Shown: in pieces, positions 1,133 through 28,734 of the stretch
Layout of the letters: the number at the start of each line of letters is the position of its first letter
Numbering within the stretch: position 1 is the first letter of the stretch
Source: Peptococcaceae bacterium
Lineage (GTDB): Bacteria > Bacillota > Peptococcia > Peptococcales > Peptococcaceae
Direction: 5' to 3'
Length of the DNA: 38,802 bases
Assembly (NCBI GenBank): GCA_030524315.1
Contig: JAUNGU010000012.1
Span: forward strand, 1-38,802
Made by a program: the position numbers and the translations under genes
The notes under the pieces: model-generated
What the model saw: the letters and a program-made list of their open reading frames with translations, nothing else
Told to the model about the DNA's origin: nothing
Databases searched by the model: none

Positions 1133-3688
1133 GTCTTTTTCCTCCTCAGAAGTTTCCAGTGGCTCCATGCCTTTGTAGGTGAAGCCGAGATCCGTTAGTG
1201 TTTTTTCCAGTGGCAGCGATTCCGGCGCAGCCGTGGTGACGACAGTGGCGCAGTGGTCATCGAGAGAGACCTCTGCGCTTTCAACACCCGCCAGGGCCCC
1301 CAGGCCCTTTTCGACGCTCATCTTGCAGTGGTTGCAGCTCATGCCGTCGATGTCGACGCGAATCGTCTGGCGTGGACCGGCGGCTTGTGGCGTCTCGGCG
1401 GCTCTAGGCTGAGCGGCCGGGGCGATGCTTGGCTTCCAGGCGCGCAGGCGCAGGGCGTTGGTGACCACAAAGAGGGAGCTCAGGCTCATGCAGGCGGCGG
1501 CAATCATCGGATTGAGGGTGATGCCAAAGGCAGGGTAGAAGCCCCCGGCTGCCAGCGGAATGCAGAGCACATTATAGAAGAACGCCCAGAACAGGTTCTG
1601 GTGGATGTTGCGAATGGTGGCCGCCGAGAGCTCGTAGGCATAGGCAATGTCCGAGAGCTGGCTCGAGGTCAGGATGACGTCGCCGCTTTCGATGGCGATG
1701 TCGGTACCGGCGCCAATGGCGATGCCGACGTCGGCACGGGCCAGGGCTGGGGCGTCGTTGATGCCGTCGCCGACCATGGCGACGCGTTTGCCCTTGGCCT
1801 TGAGGTCCGAGATGACGCCTTCCTTTTCAGCAGGATGAACCTCAGAGATGACGTCGTCGAGAGCAATCTTCTCGGCGACGGCCTTGGCGGTGGTGTGGTG
1901 GTCGCCAGTGAGCATGATGAGCTCCTTGCCCATCTGATGCAGGGTGGCGATGGCCTGCGGCGTGTCGGCCTTGATTTGGTCGGCGCAGGCGAGCATGCCG
2001 AGGAGCTGCTTGCTGTCAGCGAGATAGAGGGGCGTCTTGCCCTCGCGGGCGAGCTGCTCGGCTTTTTTGTCGGCGCCGCGGGTGTCGAGACCAAGCTTTT
2101 CCATGAGGCTGAGGTTGCCGGCATAGTATTCGTTGCCGCCAATGGTGGCAGCCACGCCCATGCCCGAGAGGGCACGGAAATCGTCGGCTTCAAGGGGCTT
2201 CATGTCGCGGCTATCGGCAGCGAGGGTGATGGCCTGGGCCAATGGATGCTCGCTGTGGGATTCGAGGGAGGCGGCGATGTGCAACAGCGCATCCTCGCCC
2301 TGTCCCTGGAAGGGCACGATATCGGTCAGGGACGGATGTCCCTCGGTGATGGTGCCCGTCTTGTCAAAAACAAAGGTGTCGATGTTGTGGAGCTGCTCCA
2401 GGGCTGTGGCGTCTTTGAAGAGCACGCCCTTTTTGGCACCCTGGCCGCTGCCAACCATGATGGCCACCGGCGTTGCCAGCCCCAGCGCACAAGGGCAGCT
2501 GATGACGATGACCGAGATGCCCATCTTGATGGCAAATGGGAAAGGCTCGCCCACAATCAGCCAGATGCCGAAGGTGATGAGTGCCAGCGTGAGAATCGCC
2601 GGTACAAAGACGGCGGCGACGCGGTCGGCAGTGCGAGCGATCGGCGCCTTGGTGGCGTTGGCATTTTCGACAAGGCTGACGATTTTTGAAAGCGCCGTGT
2701 CGGCGCCGACGGCCGTCGCGCGGAAGCGAAAAGCACCGGTGGTGTTGATGGTACCGGCAGAGACCGCATCGCCAGGTCCTTTTTCGACAGGAATGCTCTC
2801 GCCGGAAAAGGCGCTCTCGTCAATGGAGGAGCTGCCGCTGACGATTTCGCCATCGACAGGAATGCGCCCGCCGGGACGCACCTCCAAAATATTGCCAGCG
2901 ACCACATCGGCGGTGTGGATCGGTTTGACGCTGTCGCCTTCGACGAGGTAGGCCGTCTCCGGCGCCAGGGCCATGAGGTCGCTGATGGCATCACTGGTGT
3001 GGCGTTTGGCGCGGGCCTCCAGATATTTGCCGATGGTGATCAAGGCGACGATCATCGCCGCTGAATCATAGTAGAGCTGATGCAGCCCTTCCATGGCATC
3101 CATCATGTTGCCACCTGCCAGATGCATGTAGATGACGATGGTCGTGTAGATGCTGTAGAGGAGCGAAATCCCCGAGCCCACGGCGACGAGGCTGTCCATG
3201 TTTGGATGGCGCTGGGCGAGGGCCTTGAAGCCGCTGGTGAAATAGGCGCGGTTGATGATGAGAATGATCACCGAGAGCACCAGCTGCACCAGTGGGCTCA
3301 GCGTGAGCCAGAGCATGTTGTCCATGAGGGCCTTCGGCATGAAGGGCGCCATTGGCAGCATGGCCACGAGCATCAGCGGAATCATTAAAATGACCGAGTA
3401 GAGGATGCGGCGTTTTTTTGCCTGCTCTTCGGCGCTCAGGGCCGCGCTCACTTGGCGCGCCTTATTGGCGTCGTGGACCTCGGCGTGATAACCGGCGGCG
3501 TCCACTGCGTCCATAATCGTCGAAAGGGCCAGCCCATCGCTGTGGGTCACACGCATGCGCCCGCTGAGCAGATTCACCGATACATCCTCCGCGCCACAGC
3601 CCTTGACGGCGCGCTCGACAGCTGCCTGACAGGCGCTGCACGACATGCCCGTGACGTCAAAATCTGTGACGGTTTGTTGTTCATCCAT
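905..3688 (-). CDS. copA: Copper-exporting P1B-type ATPase CopA with one N-terminal and two C-terminal HMA domains
   Basis: A 927-residue Cu(I)-export ATPase. Domains in order: N-terminal HMA with GMSCSAC (C17, C20); membrane segments; actuator loop; transport motif CPC (398-400); phosphorylation motif DKTGT (D442); the SEHPLA His-Pro motif; GDGINDAPA near 640-648; last membrane helices; then two C-terminal HMA domains (about 774-842 and 853-927), each with GMSCNHCK (Cys 785/788 and 869/872). Typical CopA has 740-830 residues with N-terminal HMAs only, so the C-terminal pair is unusual. The two share SCNHCKMSVEKGL, suggesting duplication. The last begins at an in-frame ATG with a perfect ribosome binding site, as if a former copZ gene had become fused (see separate entry). 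The start at 3688 has AGAAGGGA 5-7 nt upstream. First gene of a copper operon with csoR. Confidence 0.95.
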   Translation of the reverse strand: MDEQQTVTDFDVTGMSCSACQAAVERAVKGCGAEDVSVNLLSGRMRVTHSDGLALSTIMDAVDAAGYHAEVHDANKARQVSAALSAEEQAKKRRILYSVILMIPLMLVAMLPMAPFMPKALMDNMLWLTLSPLVQLVLSVIILIINRAYFTSGFKALAQRHPNMDSLVAVGSGISLLYSIYTTIVIYMHLAGGNMMDAMEGLHQLYYDSAAMIVALITIGKYLEARAKRHTSDAISDLMALAPETAYLVEGDSVKPIHTADVVAGNILEVRPGGRIPVDGEIVSGSSSIDESAFSGESIPVEKGPGDAVSAGTINTTGAFRFRATAVGADTALSKIVSLVENANATKAPIARTADRVAAVFVPAILTLALITFGIWLIVGEPFPFAIKMGISVIVISCPCALGLATPVAIMVGSGQGAKKGVLFKDATALEQLHNIDTFVFDKTGTITEGHPSLTDIVPFQGQGEDALLHIAASLESHSEHPLAQAITLAADSRDMKPLEADDFRALSGMGVAATIGGNEYYAGNLSLMEKLGLDTRGADKKAEQLAREGKTPLYLADSKQLLGMLACADQIKADTPQAIATLHQMGKELIMLTGDHHTTAKAVAEKIALDDVISEVHPAEKEGVISDLKAKGKRVAMVGDGINDAPALARADVGIAIGAGTDIAIESGDVILTSSQLSDIAYAYELSAATIRNIHQNLFWAFFYNVLCIPLAAGGFYPAFGITLNPMIAAACMSLSSLFVVTNALRLRAWKPSIAPAAQPRAAETPQAAGPRQTIRVDIDGMSCNHCKMSVEKGLGALAGVESAEVSLDDHCATVVTTAAPESLPLEKTLTDLGFTYKGMEPLETSEEEKDMFGKKFHATVNVEGMSCNHCKMSVEKGLEGLDGVKKAVVSLDDKTAKITTSVDPSTLPIEKTINDLGFTFKGLEQ

Positions 3689-4676: not shown

Positions 4677-5033
4677 TTATGCCTTGTTTTCGTAGATAAC
4701 GCAGGCGAGCATAACGAGGTTGCCGTCGCCGGCATCGCGGATGCTGTGGGTGGCACCGTCGGCGGTGTAGACGACGTCACCTGGGTGGACGGTGATTTCC
4801 TGGCCGTTATCGACGGCGATGCCTTCGCCCTCGAGGATGTAGTAGATTTCGTAGTTGTCGACGTGGGCGTGGTCGCCGATGGCGGCGCCGGCGTCAAAGG
4901 AGAGGACCTTGAAGAGCTTGGCTTCGTCCTTGAGGAGCGCTGGTGGGACGACGGTTTTGAAATCGATTTTGCCCTGGCCGCCAGCGTAATTTTCCATGGT
5001 TTCAGATACTTGTTCTTGATCGCGAATGATCAT
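4677..5033 (-). CDS. Single-domain cupin (RmlC-like) protein
   Basis: A 118-residue small cupin. Motif 1 is complete: GDHAHVDNYEIYYILEG with metal ligands H55, H57 and E62. Motif 2 is PGDVVYTADGATHS with H96. The 3-His/1-Glu set implies a bound divalent metal. Small cupins of this type include sugar epimerases, dioxygenases and regulators, and nothing here decides between them. The frame opens at 5048, but the ATG at 5033 is preferred because GGAGGT lies 7 nt before it. The gene is monocistronic, with a TATACT-like -10 upstream on the minus strand. Confidence 0.8.
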   Translation of the reverse strand: MIIRDQEQVSETMENYAGGQGKIDFKTVVPPALLKDEAKLFKVLSFDAGAAIGDHAHVDNYEIYYILEGEGIAVDNGQEITVHPGDVVYTADGATHSIRDAGDGNLVMLACVIYENKA

Positions 5034-24671: not shown

Positions 24672-24947
24672 TTAAAAAATATCGCTGTGTGTGCTTGTGC
24701 GTGTTAAATAAAGGTAGAGCTTTTCTTCGCAGTATTCGTAGACGAGCAACCAATCTGGCGCGATGTGACATTCACAGAGGCCTTTGAAATTGCCTGTCAG
24801 CGCATGATCACGATTTTTTTCTGGAAGAGATTTGCCTTCGGCGAGGGTCGTGATGATTTCTTCGAGAAGGGCAATATTGTAGCCGCGTTTCTGAATGCGT
24901 TTGAGATCATTGCGGAAATTTTTCGATGGCCAGACGTCATACATCAT
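24672..24947 (-). CDS. YafQ/RelE-family mRNA interferase toxin
   Basis: A 91-residue RelE-superfamily toxin of the YafQ branch. The YafQ catalytic residues fall at their usual places: H48 (RDHALTG), H61 (CECHIAPDW), D65/W66, H87 and F91 (STHSDIF at the very C-terminus). Such toxins cleave mRNA in the ribosome. It overlaps the antitoxin gene by 11 bp, so the two are coupled; the first ATG at 24947 has only a weak upstream GGAC. Functional toxin expected. Confidence 0.88.
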   Translation of the reverse strand: MMYDVWPSKNFRNDLKRIQKRGYNIALLEEIITTLAEGKSLPEKNRDHALTGNFKGLCECHIAPDWLLVYEYCEEKLYLYLTRTSTHSDIF

Positions 24948-25221
24948 CGCTCAATAAGTCCTTCATCATTTCGTGCACATCGCTGTAGCCCTTGCCATAA
25001 GAAGGGTCTGCCTTCATGCGTTGCACGTCCTGGATGGCGGCGAGGGTTTCTGTATTTGGACGGTCGCGGCCAATCTCAAAGGGGATACGTTCTTCTCGAA
25101 CCACCTTGCGGGCGAAGATATTGAAGGCCGTCGACATATTCATGCCCATCTCATTGCAAAAAGCTTCGAATTGCTGCTTGACTTCGGTGTCCATTCGGAT
25201 ATTGACATTGGTTGTGGACAT
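24937..25221 (-). CDS. DinJ/RelB-family antitoxin
   Basis: A 94-residue antitoxin. The N-terminal NVNIRMDTEVKQQFEAF followed by MGMNMSTAFNIFARKVV is the ribbon-helix-helix of DinJ/RelB, which binds the operator as a dimer; the C-terminal GKGYSDVHEMMKDLL wraps the toxin. AAAGGAG lies 9 nt before the ATG at 25221. It precedes the toxin gene with an 11-bp overlap, the usual order, and has a good promoter upstream. Confidence 0.88.
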   Translation of the reverse strand: MSTTNVNIRMDTEVKQQFEAFCNEMGMNMSTAFNIFARKVVREERIPFEIGRDRPNTETLAAIQDVQRMKADPSYGKGYSDVHEMMKDLLSDDV

Positions 25222-25369: not shown

Positions 25370-26770
25370 TTAAGATAGATTGAATAATTGCGCGAGTGCT
25401 TTTTGGCTATCTTCATCTGATACGTCAGTATGTTTTAATACGATAGCATAAATCAATATTTCGAGAATATGAATATCGCTGACATGCGTGGTCTCAATTT
25501 CTAAAGATAAATTCCCATGAACTAACTTATTTCGGAGATCATTTAATCGATTGCAGAGAGACATATCATCACTTGTAGAGTATTGCTCTTCAAGGAATGG
25601 TTTCATTACTTGAAGGCAATCTTGTAACGCATGCTCGATTTTCTTTCCTAAACTAGAATCGTGATTTTTGATAAGTGACAAAAGTGATCCTACGTATTTC
25701 TTCTCTTGGCTGGTTTTAGTGTTTTGAAGTGCTTTGAGATACTGGGTTATTTCCTGTTTGATTGCAATATATTTGTTGGATCGCCCGGCATCTTTTCCGT
25801 AGTATGAAAAAAAGACAGATTCAAAGGCTGCAAAAATCATTACCACACGGTTTGGTGTGATAATATTTCTGGAATCGAATGACGGAATGTGATCCAAATA
25901 TGCTTTTTTCAGTTTAATTGCTTCAATAAGGTTGCAAATGTGTGTTTCTAAAAATCGGTATTCAATAATGCGTTTATTTGGTTGGCCGTCGATAGGCGGG
26001 ATTTCTTTCTTTGGGAAAAAAAGATCCCCTGAGTGATATTGCTTTCCAGAGTTATTGAATGATTGTAAGTTTATAGTCTCGAGACGTATATCTGAGCGAT
26101 AAGTGAGAAAAACAAAAAGTCTATGAAGATCCTGGATTTCCGATAGAGCTGTTTCTAAATTAATGGGAGTGTTAAAGGTAATGAGGACTTGACTATTTGC
26201 ATGAACAAATTGCTGATAATTAAGTGGTTCGCAGTAACCAGAGGATCTTATTTCTATCGTTGCGCTGATAGAATCAGAAATGTCATAGGAGCCACATGAA
26301 ATTGTGTTAGGCTGCGATATAGAAACGTCTATTTTCGAGAAATCCTCTGCTACATTTGACACATAGTGAAAATTTAATTCTAACGGATCTTTCGGAGGGA
26401 AAAATACGTTGATAGTATTGCCTCTTAGGCATAAAGAATGGATGCTATCTTCATCAAATCCGTGTGTACCATATAAATACCAATCAACATTGAAGCTGAG
26501 AAACCCATTCATATTTGAAGGCAGACTTTCTACAGAAAAAAAGATTTTTTTATTATCTACACCTTTTCCAATAAGAATTTTGTGAGGAATCCAGTTGTTT
26601 TTAAATTGCTCAAGAACATCTTGTAGATTATGTATAGATGAGGACGTGAGTGTTCTATATTGGCTTTTGCTTGGGTATAAGTTGAGAATAAAATGGGTAA
26701 AATCAAATTCAAATGCCATTTCATTATTGCCATGAAAGATATAGCCAATTAGGCGTTCGGGCGTTTTCAA
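25370..26770 (-). CDS. HEPN-domain protein, probable ApeA-like antiphage abortive-infection protein
   Basis: A 466-residue protein. The N-terminal half (GYIFHGNNEMAFEFDF onward) is beta-rich and resembles the ApeA N-terminal domain; the C-terminal third is helical and ends with the HEPN RNase motif RNKLVHG (R413, H418; Rx4H). ApeA is a single-gene abortive-infection system in which the HEPN domain is thought to cut RNA on infection. Start choice: AAAGGAGG is only 1 nt from the first ATG (26776) but 7 nt from the in-frame TTG two codons later, so TTG at 26770 is preferred. Clearly AT-richer than the flanking chromosome. It has its own strong promoter and terminator and is divergent from an Abi_2 gene. 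Assignment to ApeA is by pattern; the HEPN call is firmer. Confidence 0.65.
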   Translation of the reverse strand: MKTPERLIGYIFHGNNEMAFEFDFTHFILNLYPSKSQYRTLTSSSIHNLQDVLEQFKNNWIPHKILIGKGVDNKKIFFSVESLPSNMNGFLSFNVDWYLYGTHGFDEDSIHSLCLRGNTINVFFPPKDPLELNFHYVSNVAEDFSKIDVSISQPNTISCGSYDISDSISATIEIRSSGYCEPLNYQQFVHANSQVLITFNTPINLETALSEIQDLHRLFVFLTYRSDIRLETINLQSFNNSGKQYHSGDLFFPKKEIPPIDGQPNKRIIEYRFLETHICNLIEAIKLKKAYLDHIPSFDSRNIITPNRVVMIFAAFESVFFSYYGKDAGRSNKYIAIKQEITQYLKALQNTKTSQEKKYVGSLLSLIKNHDSSLGKKIEHALQDCLQVMKPFLEEQYSTSDDMSLCNRLNDLRNKLVHGNLSLEIETTHVSDIHILEILIYAIVLKHTDVSDEDSQKALAQLFNLS

Positions 26771-26820
26771 TTTCATGCCTCCTTTTTTTGTATTCTTAGA
26801 CGCATTAGTATTGTCGATAT

Positions 26821-26849
26821 AGTATAATATTGCAGTGAGAATGTGTCAA
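26821..26849 (-). promoter_or_regulatory. Promoter of the ApeA-like gene
   Basis: TTGACA (26849-26844), exactly 17 bp, TATACT (26826-26821). A TATAAT on the plus strand (26823-26828) overlaps this -10, so divergent transcripts toward the Abi gene could compete here, although no good plus-strand -35 is seen. Confidence 0.75.
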
Positions 26850-26874
26850 TTAGAGAAAGAAGTTTAAAAAACAT

Positions 26875-26969
26875 AAAGATGATACGATGCAAGAGAAAAT
26901 AGAGAGTTGTAAGTCTGTAGCACGTCGAACAATGCTGTTACAACTATTGTGCAAGAAATCTACATCTTT
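26875..26969 (+). ncRNA. Candidate structured RNA upstream of the Abi gene
   Basis: The outer arms AAAGATG (26875-26881) and CATCTTT (26963-26969) enclose a hairpin made of GTTGTAA (26906-26912) with TTACAAC (26938-26944) and AGCA with TGCT inside it. The right arm runs into TTTT. It lies 74 bp before the Abi start. Structured RNAs are known upstream of abiF-type genes (the abiF RNA motif); whether this one belongs to it cannot be decided by eye. Confidence 0.4.
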
Positions 26970-27042
26970 TCCAAGGTAGGTTCTTTTTGCATTTACTAAG
27001 TTTTAGCGAGTATTGCAATAACAGAGATAGGTGGTGATAAAT

Positions 27043-27981
27043 ATGGACATACCAAAGCCGAAGCTGACAGTAGATGAACAGATCAATCATCTCAAAGCAA
27101 AAGGCGTGCAGTTTAACATCATGGACGAAGATGCAGCTCGAGAGTATTTGACATACAATACCAATTACTTTCGTGTGGCCGCTTATAGGAAGAATTATCG
27201 TCAACATCCAGACGGTCAAAAGAAAGGTCAATATGTCAACCTGGAGTTTGCGTATTTAGTCGAGATTGCCAGTATTGATAATGAATTGCGCCATGTTATT
27301 TTGCGATTATCTGCTGAAATCGAGCATTATATAAGGATGACTATTCTATCCTTGATTGAGAAAACAGATGATGATGGCTATGCCATGTTACAAGCATACA
27401 TACAATCATTGGACGAGAAATCAGCAAGTATATTACAGTCGGAAATCAAGCGCAATCAGAGTAGCCCTTATTGTCAGGAGATGGAAAGAAAATATCGCGA
27501 GCAAATGCCAGTATGGGTCTTTGTCGAACTTATTTCATTAGGGCGATTGATTTCCTTGTATGAATTTTGCGGCCAATATTTTGACGAGCCAACTATGAGC
27601 GAAAACTTTTATAGGCTCTTATCGTGTAAAACCCTCAGAAATGCCGCTGCGCATAATAGTTGCATCTTGAATGATTTAAGAAAAATAGCTAAGATAAAAT
27701 TTCCAGTTAATAATGCTGTGATGCAAGCTGTTTCTAATATGCCAAATATATCCAGTGGGTTTGCAAGAAAAAGACTACATAATTTACGATTGGCCCAAAT
27801 CACCACGATGATGTTTGTTCACCAGCAAATGGTTGTTGATGAGGATATGAAACAAGGGAGTGCGAAGGCATTACATCAACTTATTGACTTCATGAATAGA
27901 AAAGAAGAGTTCTTTGATAGCAACAACCTAATAGCTGTATCTTGGAAGTACCTTGATATTCTGATTGACACCTGGTATTAA
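27043..27981 (+). CDS. Abi_2-family (AbiD/AbiF) abortive-infection protein with HEPN motif
   Basis: A 312-residue protein with the Abi_2 signature at its N-terminus: KPKLTVDEQINHLKAKGV, then YLTYNTNYFRVAAYRKNYR. The middle has RHVILRLSAEIEHYIR and the catalytic-type HEPN motif RNAAAHNS (Rx4H), suggesting RNase activity. Abi_2 proteins block phage development, usually by stopping growth of the infected cell. The frame opens with GTG at 27031, but the ATG at 27043 follows ATAGGTGG at proper distance. AT-rich like the ApeA-like gene, and divergent from it. Two terminators follow. Confidence 0.83.
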   Translation: MDIPKPKLTVDEQINHLKAKGVQFNIMDEDAAREYLTYNTNYFRVAAYRKNYRQHPDGQKKGQYVNLEFAYLVEIASIDNELRHVILRLSAEIEHYIRMTILSLIEKTDDDGYAMLQAYIQSLDEKSASILQSEIKRNQSSPYCQEMERKYREQMPVWVFVELISLGRLISLYEFCGQYFDEPTMSENFYRLLSCKTLRNAAAHNSCILNDLRKIAKIKFPVNNAVMQAVSNMPNISSGFARKRLHNLRLAQITTMMFVHQQMVVDEDMKQGSAKALHQLIDFMNRKEEFFDSNNLIAVSWKYLDILIDTWY

Positions 27982-28025
27982 ATCATTTACAATTTATTTA
28001 GAAGTAAAAAAGCGTAGGCTTTTTA

Positions 28026-28066
28026 CGGGGCGGCATTGCGCAAGCGATCCCAGCCCCGATTTTTTA
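28026..28066 (+). terminator. Terminator 1 after the Abi gene
   Basis: CGGGGC (28026-28031) and GCCCCG (28053-28058) enclose a 21-nt loop with weak inner pairing, followed by ATTTTTTATTTTT. Confidence 0.75.
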
Positions 28067-28074
28067 TTTTTAGG

Positions 28075-28105
28075 AGACGTCATTCAGCAGTGGCGTCTTT
28101 TTTTT
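28075..28105 (+). terminator. Terminator 2 after the Abi gene
   Basis: AGACGTCA pairs with TGGCGTCT (one U-G) around TTCAGCAG and runs into eight T. A tandem terminator after the Abi gene limits read-through. Confidence 0.75.
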
Positions 28106-28132
28106 AGCTCATCACGACATTCTATAGGAAAG

Positions 28133-28202
28133 TAAAAAACACGGACAAGTCTCGTACTGAAAGCTTCAACAAATCAGTAAAAGTGAGAAGTTGTCCGTGT
28201 TT
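28133..28202 (-). terminator. Long hairpin terminator of the 168-aa gene
   Basis: AAACACGGACAA and TTGTCCGTGTTT form a perfect 12-bp outer stem; inside, CTC/GAG and TACTGA/TCAGTA pair again. On the minus strand the outer stem ends in a six-T run. It follows the stop of the 28228 gene by about 26 bp. Confidence 0.75.
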
Positions 28203-28227
28203 AGTTTTGAGAATAAAGAATGTGAAG

Positions 28228-28734
28228 CTATTTATCAAAGGTTTGGTGTTCTAAACGTATACCGTAGGGATCAGCACCCTCCCATGTTTGAATTTCATTT
28301 TCTTCTGTAAAAGGATCAATCCATGCGATAGCAAAAACATATTCCTCTGTTTCTGTTGTCCCAAGCACTATGTATTCTACGCCATCAGGTAAGTAATCAT
28401 TATCATAATCATAGGTGTCGGATGCCCTTGTACCATCTATAAAATATCCAGAATCACCCTCCATACCAATTGAAAGTTTTGTTGTTCCCCTGTAAAAACT
28501 CTTTAACTCTAAATTCTCACCCGATTCAATATCATCATTTGAATTTGGAATATGCCCCTTGATACGGCATGAAATTGTATGTCTTTTCCCATCTGGCTTG
28601 AAGTTTAATTTTATAAAAAATCTTCCGTCTAAATCAGGAAACGACGATGGGTCACACAGTAGCGCTGTGTAATCATATTCGATTTCCTCATTGTCAAATA
28701 ATATTTCAATTTCTCCTAATGGTGTCAGTAGCAT
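28228..28734 (-). CDS. Unrecognised 168-residue acidic protein
   Basis: I do not recognise the family. The protein is soluble, acidic and beta-rich by eye (MLLTPLGEIEILFDNEE, RHTISCRIKGHIP, EYIVLGTTETEEYVFAIAW), with no signal peptide, membrane helix or catalytic motif. Size and character would fit an immunity or accessory protein in a defence or polymorphic-toxin setting, but that is a guess. GGGGTG, 6 nt before the ATG at 28734, is chosen over the GTG at 28743, which overlaps the stop of the hsdM stump. AT-rich composition matches the neighbouring defence genes. Own terminator on the left. Confidence 0.6.
   Translation of the reverse strand: MLLTPLGEIEILFDNEEIEYDYTALLCDPSSFPDLDGRFFIKLNFKPDGKRHTISCRIKGHIPNSNDDIESGENLELKSFYRGTTKLSIGMEGDSGYFIDGTRASDTYDYDNDYLPDGVEYIVLGTTETEEYVFAIAWIDPFTEENEIQTWEGADPYGIRLEHQTFDK

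Follow-up and report, generated by a model that had tools for sequence, protein, structure and literature searches.

The window (the whole stretch of 38,802 nt of DNA that was analysed) holds a gene for an Abi protein, and the question raised by this locus is whether a structured RNA accompanies that gene and, if so, on which side of it. The initial annotation had described the product as a HEPN protein and had proposed that the leader directly before the gene is a structured RNA, possibly of the abiF type. A conserved structured RNA does accompany the Abi gene, as that proposal held; however, it lies downstream and not in the leader, and it does not belong to the Rfam abiF family.

The Abi protein and its predicted fold

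The Abi gene spans positions 27043–27981 of the plus strand, with an in-frame GTG at 27031 as an alternative start, and encodes a 312-aa protein which Pfam, PADLOC, profile and fold evidence mark as an Abi_2/AbiF-type HEPN protein and predicted toxin. The match to Pfam PF07751 (Abi_2) scored 92.4 bits against a cut-off of 25.6, PADLOC assigned the protein to AbiD (E 2.1e-31), and NCBIfam offered no family for it. A phmmer search of the PDB using the single protein returned nothing, but a profile built from 11 relatives did retrieve the PbAbiF chain of 8VZ6 (E 1.5e-5). The AlphaFold2 model (pLDDT 89.6) matched 8VZ6 in Foldseek (E 2.1e-4), and a VIA comparison with this PbAbiF–RNA complex gave a Z of 15.9 and an rmsd of 4.3 over 276 aligned residues at 13% identity.

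In the accessible part of PMC12373285, the HEPN RNase motif is defined as R-polar-xxx-H. The alignment of relatives placed a corresponding motif at R199-N-A-A-A-H204 (codons 27637–27654, plus strand), and it fits that definition; all 11 aligned sequences share R199, N200 and H204. The assignment to the HEPN proteins was borne out by the Abi_2 domain, the RNAAAH motif and the fold match to 8VZ6. Judged by family, motif and predicted fold, the gene product is an AbiF-fold HEPN protein, and on the same grounds it is predicted to act as a ribonuclease.

The leader ahead of the gene

The nested arms reported for the leader (26860–27042) were all located, namely AAAGATG at 26875 with CATCTTT at 26963, GTTGTAA at 26906 with TTACAAC at 26938, and AGCA at 26919 with TGCT at 26933. 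The TTTT that follows them occupies 26967–26970, which leaves 72 bp to the ATG at 27043 rather than the 74 bp given earlier. The pairing thus exists, and it is barely above chance. Folding of the entire leader gave a z of -0.74, with 48 of 200 shuffles equally good, and folding of its core a z of -0.27, with 73 of 200 equally good; the outer helix was absent from the minimum-energy fold of the entire leader. When the leader was dinucleotide-shuffled 5000 times, 218 of the shuffles contained two nested 7-bp helices, as did 41 of the 634 stretches of 183 nt across the window, and the same arrangement plus an extra 4-bp helix arose in 70 of 5000 shuffles.

The terminator scan found no terminator-like site within the leader, no plus-strand promoter with at least 9 of 12 matches was seen ahead of it from position 26750 on, and the genome holds no second copy of it; the contig carrying the paralog of the Abi gene begins only 50 bp before that paralog. 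The scan with the Rfam abiF model that had been suggested for the leader was run, and neither RF03085 nor any other Rfam family matched within the window at its gathering score. RF03085 likewise gave nothing in the surrounding 2.1 kb (26500–28600) when matches up to an E of 10 were admitted, nor at the Abi locus in a search of the genome. For comparison, the RCd22 site of phage CD2301, a published upstream RNA, reached 26.6 bits with RF03085; this is under the gathering score (37), and a real RNA of such a kind could thus have been detected. The covariance model of the downstream RNA described below did not match the leader either. Among relatives, the upstream regions were mostly unstructured (mean z -0.57); a z below -2 was reached at 8 of 44 loci and was owed partly to the terminators of preceding genes.

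The leader was accordingly rejected as an abiF RNA, there being no RF03085 match, no fold beyond that of shuffles, no terminator and no second copy. That it might still be a regulator of another kind, either an attenuator or an RNA antitoxin ahead of the gene, could be argued from the nested pairing and from the precedent of Clostridioides difficile, in which RCd22 sits upstream of its abiF gene (PMC12373285, accessible part). With the fold at the level of shuffles, neither terminator nor promoter found, no match from either RNA model and little structure ahead of the genes of relatives, we regard such a role as very improbable.

Elsewhere in the same genome (L001 405–452, minus strand, G000:C90), RF03085 reported an abiF-like hairpin of 27.9 bits (gathering score 37) with no Abi gene adjoining; the gene ahead of it is presumably of the NlpC/P60 type, and the hairpin is possibly an orphan, or else a terminator matched by chance.

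A promoter and a candidate RNA behind the gene

Over the last Abi codons and the stop lies a sigma-70-type promoter, TTGACA-17-TACAAT (27965–27993, plus strand, 11 of 12 matches), which faces downstream. Behind it, folding and a covariance model delineate a candidate RNA antitoxin at 28000–28065 (plus strand) whose inferred extent is about 65 nt and which is made up of a short 5' leader, two hairpins and a U-tract. Hairpin 1, AAAAAGC-GUAG-GCUUUUU (28007–28024), was predicted by folding, and hairpin 2, CGGGGC-GG-C-AUUGC-GCAA-GCGAU-CC-A-GCCCCG (28026–28058), by folding and covariation; an A and six U (28059–28065) form the probable 3' end, with hairpin 2 as terminator. The simple terminator scan did not report the bulged hairpin 2, and it did report a second, ordinary terminator-like hairpin behind the RNA (28072–28101); all of these lie on the plus strand. 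The unit with its flank (27982–28066) folded with a z of -4.00 and scored 71.7 bits with the covariance model, in which it was itself one of eight training units. As in type III toxin-antitoxin loci, a small structured candidate RNA would adjoin the toxin gene, and the sequence features point to its transcription from a promoter of its own directly after the Abi gene.

The genome also encodes a paralog of the Abi protein (45% identical, at G000:C5), behind which three similar hairpin units occur, as against one behind the window gene. Exact matches to the motif shared by these units numbered four in the 2.1-Mb genome, namely the three paralog units and the window unit. TTGACA, 17 bases and a -10 box, with 11 of 12 matches, precede the window unit and paralog units 2 and 3, and the promoter of paralog unit 1 is weaker (9 of 12). 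Over the loci compared, tandem units numbered three in L005 and two in L024–L026.

To survey this arrangement, relatives were collected by protein similarity alone from genomes, viral contigs, plasmids and phages (the first and third viral scans found nothing and the second gave 12 loci), and the resulting 49 loci were thinned to 45 non-redundant ones by the similarity of their downstream regions. In most of them the order was the same: a promoter across or just after the stop, hairpin 1 with an A-rich and a U-rich arm, then hairpin 2, followed in many cases by a U-tract; the RNA units were first recognized by eye. A promoter was counted if it lay from -70 to +60 relative to the stop and matched at 10 or more of 12 positions, which was the case in 30 of the 45 (34 of 49 overall), as compared to a mean of 2.8 and a maximum of 7 in 100 rounds of shuffling. 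At least 11 of 12 matches were found in 21 relatives (0.26 in shuffles) and a perfect promoter in seven (0.02 in shuffles). The opposite strand had a promoter in 6 of 45, the 130 nt upstream of the gene in 6 of 44, and control 3' ends, taken from other ORFs of these loci, in 3 of 135. Fifteen relatives had no promoter with 10 of 12 matches at the tested place, and in three of these (L005, L031, L044) one occurs beyond that place. Of the 15 annotated loci with a next gene, 7 have that gene on the opposite strand, so the promoter is unlikely to serve it. At nine distant, outgroup Abi_2 loci, no promoter (best 8 of 12) and no covariance-model match were found; six of these are plasmids of Salmonella, Labrenzia, Rhodococcus, Cellulosimicrobium and Microbacterium, where the TTGACA-TATAAT consensus may fit less well.

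The 70 nt after the 30 promoters folded with a mean z of -3.08, and two adjacent hairpins were present in 21 of the 30 stretches, whereas 3.98 would be expected; the spacing between the -10 box and the start of hairpin 1 is almost constant. Since terminators are common at the 3' ends of genes, folding alone is little proof. It could be that the structure is a mere terminator of the Abi mRNA and that the promoter-like sequence is a by-product of conserved C-terminal codons, with Ile-Asp giving ATTGAC; hairpin 2 with its U-tract is indeed terminator-like, and the last codons do overlap many -35 boxes. Against this stand the -10 box and the 17-nt spacing, which are kept outside the codons, the constant spacing from -10 box to hairpin 1, and the promoters that accompany the duplicated units. 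Moreover, the promoter lies wholly after the stop in several loci (L015, L016, L038, L042, L062, L068), so coding does not explain it, and in one genome (G177) the last codons, the promoter and the RNA persist as a remnant although the gene is gone. We therefore consider a simple terminator improbable.

Covariation was examined with models of the RNA. A MAFFT alignment of 23 units was of little use since hairpin 2 was misaligned, and the work was restarted from 8 units of 6 loci, from which the covariance model R1 was built and used to align the rest. R1 gave 30 matches at an E of 1 or less in 50 sources (232 kb): 26 just behind an Abi_2 gene, one ahead of the gene in L059 and three low-scoring ones elsewhere. 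Fifteen of the matched loci are outside the six training loci, one of them (L063) being a near copy of L062. In the alignment A8, which has 20 rows from 21 chosen sources, is fitted to R1 and shares 8 rows with its training set, 88.3% of cells paired as compared to 71.5% in shuffles and 47.4–59.0% in slid structures, and both-sided change was seen in 15 of 18 pairs, a count reached by 0 of 500 shuffles. For hairpin 2, all 12 modelled pairs changed on both sides and 96.0% of cells paired over the 20 units; RNAalifold recovered this hairpin from A8 unaided. Hairpin 1 is poorly aligned in A8 and rests on single folds and its conserved distance from the promoter.

In the genome of the window, R1 had an off-target match of 29.4 bits at C52, which is apparently an ordinary terminator behind a gene that we take to be pyruvate oxidoreductase-like. 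A broader model, R2, matched in 13 of 398 genomes. Eight of these, including the genome of the window, were already known to carry an Abi_2 gene or its remains; seven of the eight had supplied training rows and the eighth (G073) is a near copy of one. Among the five new genomes, four had matches without an adjacent Abi gene that look like chance terminators, and the fifth, G177, had the remnant mentioned above.

That remnant (L089, 1501–1575, minus strand) is an orphan promoter and RNA unit before which only the last Abi codons remain, and it is possible, from its sequence, that it represents a retained antitoxin. In L030 and L069 the gene is broken and both promoter and RNA are kept. Loss of the gene with retention of the RNA, seen in these few cases, would be expected if the RNA were the protective half of a pair.

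The type of RNA, assigned by eye, follows the protein. A tree was built of 39 relatives and 8 outgroup Abi_2 rows, from which six loci (L023, L030, L033, L065, L069, L049) were omitted because of frame breaks, internal stop codons or an uncertain end, and four (L025, L026, L035, L063) as near copies. The relatives were split from the outgroup by a branch with 100/100 support, and RNA type required 10 changes on the tree as compared to a mean of 23.1 when shuffled, with 0 of 200 shuffles as low. The window protein falls within a well-supported set of eight, all with the same RNA type.

Two further placements were observed. L059 has a second RNA unit ahead of its Abi gene (2500–2560, minus strand) besides the one behind it. 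In Streptococcus phages and satellites (L047–L049, L050–L051), the position behind the Abi gene is taken by conserved sequences of another shape, which possibly represent additional RNA classes of this system; R1 does not find the differently shaped RNAs of the Streptococcal and some Bacilli members.

A putative RNA antitoxin and its known counterparts

From these findings, we propose that the locus encodes a module of two parts, a type III-like toxin-antitoxin or abortive-infection system, with its RNA antitoxin downstream and under its own promoter, a reading to which we give a probability of about 70%. The strong housekeeping promoter overlapping the Abi stop codon would yield a separate two-hairpin RNA ending in the U-tract, made in excess over the weakly promoted toxin. 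Like AbiFr on PbAbiF, this RNA would attach to the HEPN dimer and mask its RNase site; a phage or a stress that halts transcription or depletes the RNA would free the toxin, which would then cut RNA and stop growth, as suggested by what is known of AbiF and ToxIN. With a promoter of its own behind the gene, the RNA could be raised in dose by tandem duplication, as may have happened behind the paralog. The antitoxin role that the initial annotation had suggested for the leader is thereby transferred to the downstream RNA, which, by analogy with the RNAs of AbiF-type systems, probably keeps an RNA-cutting toxin off. For AbiF-Cd, direct neutralization of the HEPN toxin by RNA has been demonstrated, as has toxicity of Abi relatives expressed alone (PMC12373285, accessible part), and neutralization of PbAbiF by RNA is reviewed in the accessible part of PMC12737573.

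Two other roles for the RNA have to be weighed. In the first, it would be a positive cofactor or guide, nearer to a Cas13 crRNA, with the protein inactive without it and the RNA helping to sense phage RNA. The tandem units resemble an array, and in the structural comparison PbAbiF is followed by Cas13d entries, with Z of 7.7 to 6.5, a range that is common with this tool and not strong. From promoter to terminator, however, the units show no evident variable segment that could act as a guide, and in the published relatives the RNA is an inhibitor (PMC12373285 and PMC12737573, accessible parts); the protein, moreover, has 312 aa and one RxxxxH-type motif in its conserved HEPN region, with one RNA unit in the window, whereas a Cas13 (type VI CRISPR) system combines a large effector carrying two HEPN motifs with a spacer-bearing CRISPR array. 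A guide function is in our judgement unlikely. In the second, the RNA would regulate by an antisense-type mechanism, following type I logic, and pair with the toxin mRNA. It is predicted to be small and separately promoted and it adjoins the toxin gene, but it lies on the same strand as that gene. In 26 of the 30 promoter-bearing loci (L030, L065 and L069 were omitted for broken genes and L043 for having no hairpins), pairing of the RNA with its own gene was no better than that of units from other loci, either at the start region (mean rank 0.44) or in the body (0.56). Pairing with the mRNA was rejected as the mechanism on the basis of these ranks, and antisense control is highly doubtful.

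Among the nearest counterparts of the proposed RNA antitoxin module is AbiF-Cd/RCd22 of Clostridioides difficile phi027, in which an Abi_2 HEPN protein with an R-polar-xxx-H motif is likewise found beside a two-hairpin structured ncRNA, and RCd22 neutralizes the toxin by direct binding (PMC12373285, accessible part). RCd22 is situated upstream and shares the promoter of the gene by terminator read-through, whereas the window RNA is downstream with a promoter of its own and differs from RCd22 in sequence and shape, with no match to RF03085. The window protein has the same fold as PbAbiF over most of the chain; the PbAbiF–AbiFr system is known here from the PDB chain (8VZ6) and from the accessible parts of PMC12737573 and PMC12373285. 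RF03085 is itself an RNA family that accompanies abiF genes, yet it matches neither the leader nor the downstream RNA, and the conserved RNA of the window is behind the gene, not before it. Rfam 15 gave no family at the places of the downstream units, either at gathering scores in 20 loci or at an E of 5 or less in 17 loci. The toxin of ToxIN has a fold unrelated to the Abi HEPN proteins, and ToxI repeats lie upstream of the toxin gene. ToxIN-like type III systems nonetheless resemble the proposed module in that their toxin is a protein RNase and their antitoxin a small RNA, which is repeated in some cases (PMC12373285, accessible part).

No report of a downstream RNA of AbiF-type genes was found in the literature searched, which excludes most subscription papers; the placement is provisionally regarded as new, and the 2025 Cell work on AbiF may already describe such RNAs. 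A broader interpretation, on which our opinion is evenly balanced, is that a clade of AbiF-fold HEPN toxins in Bacillota, Actinomycetota, Campylobacterota plasmids and phages has a new RNA-antitoxin family behind the toxin, which is driven by the stop-region promoter, outlives loss of the gene and multiplies as a dosage array. Such a family, with its own transcript, would parallel the abiF RNA found upstream and would mean that HEPN RNases gained RNA partners by a second route as well. AbiF-type HEPN RNases have been reported as ancestors of Cas13. For the question of how they gained and changed their RNA partners, a clade with a separate, downstream and sometimes tandem RNA would provide natural intermediates to set against the upstream abiF RNA and crRNA arrays, and with parts this small, of about 310 codons and 65 nt, both toxicity and neutralization could be assayed directly in E. 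coli.

Several other elements were observed near the Abi loci. In the window, a divergent gene (25370–26776, minus strand) encodes a protein whose HEPN domain is Apea-like (25.5 bits against a cut-off of 24.4). It has its own promoter, TTGACA-17-TATACT, at 26849–26821, and the two HEPN genes are arranged back to back. A RelB/YafQ-type toxin-antitoxin pair (24672–25221, minus strand) adjoins them, and together with the two HEPN genes suggests a small defence cluster. Near the Abi locus of a Lachnospiraceae MAG (L015), an RT-5 RNA (Rfam RF03026, 84.9 bits) was found at 4746–4847.
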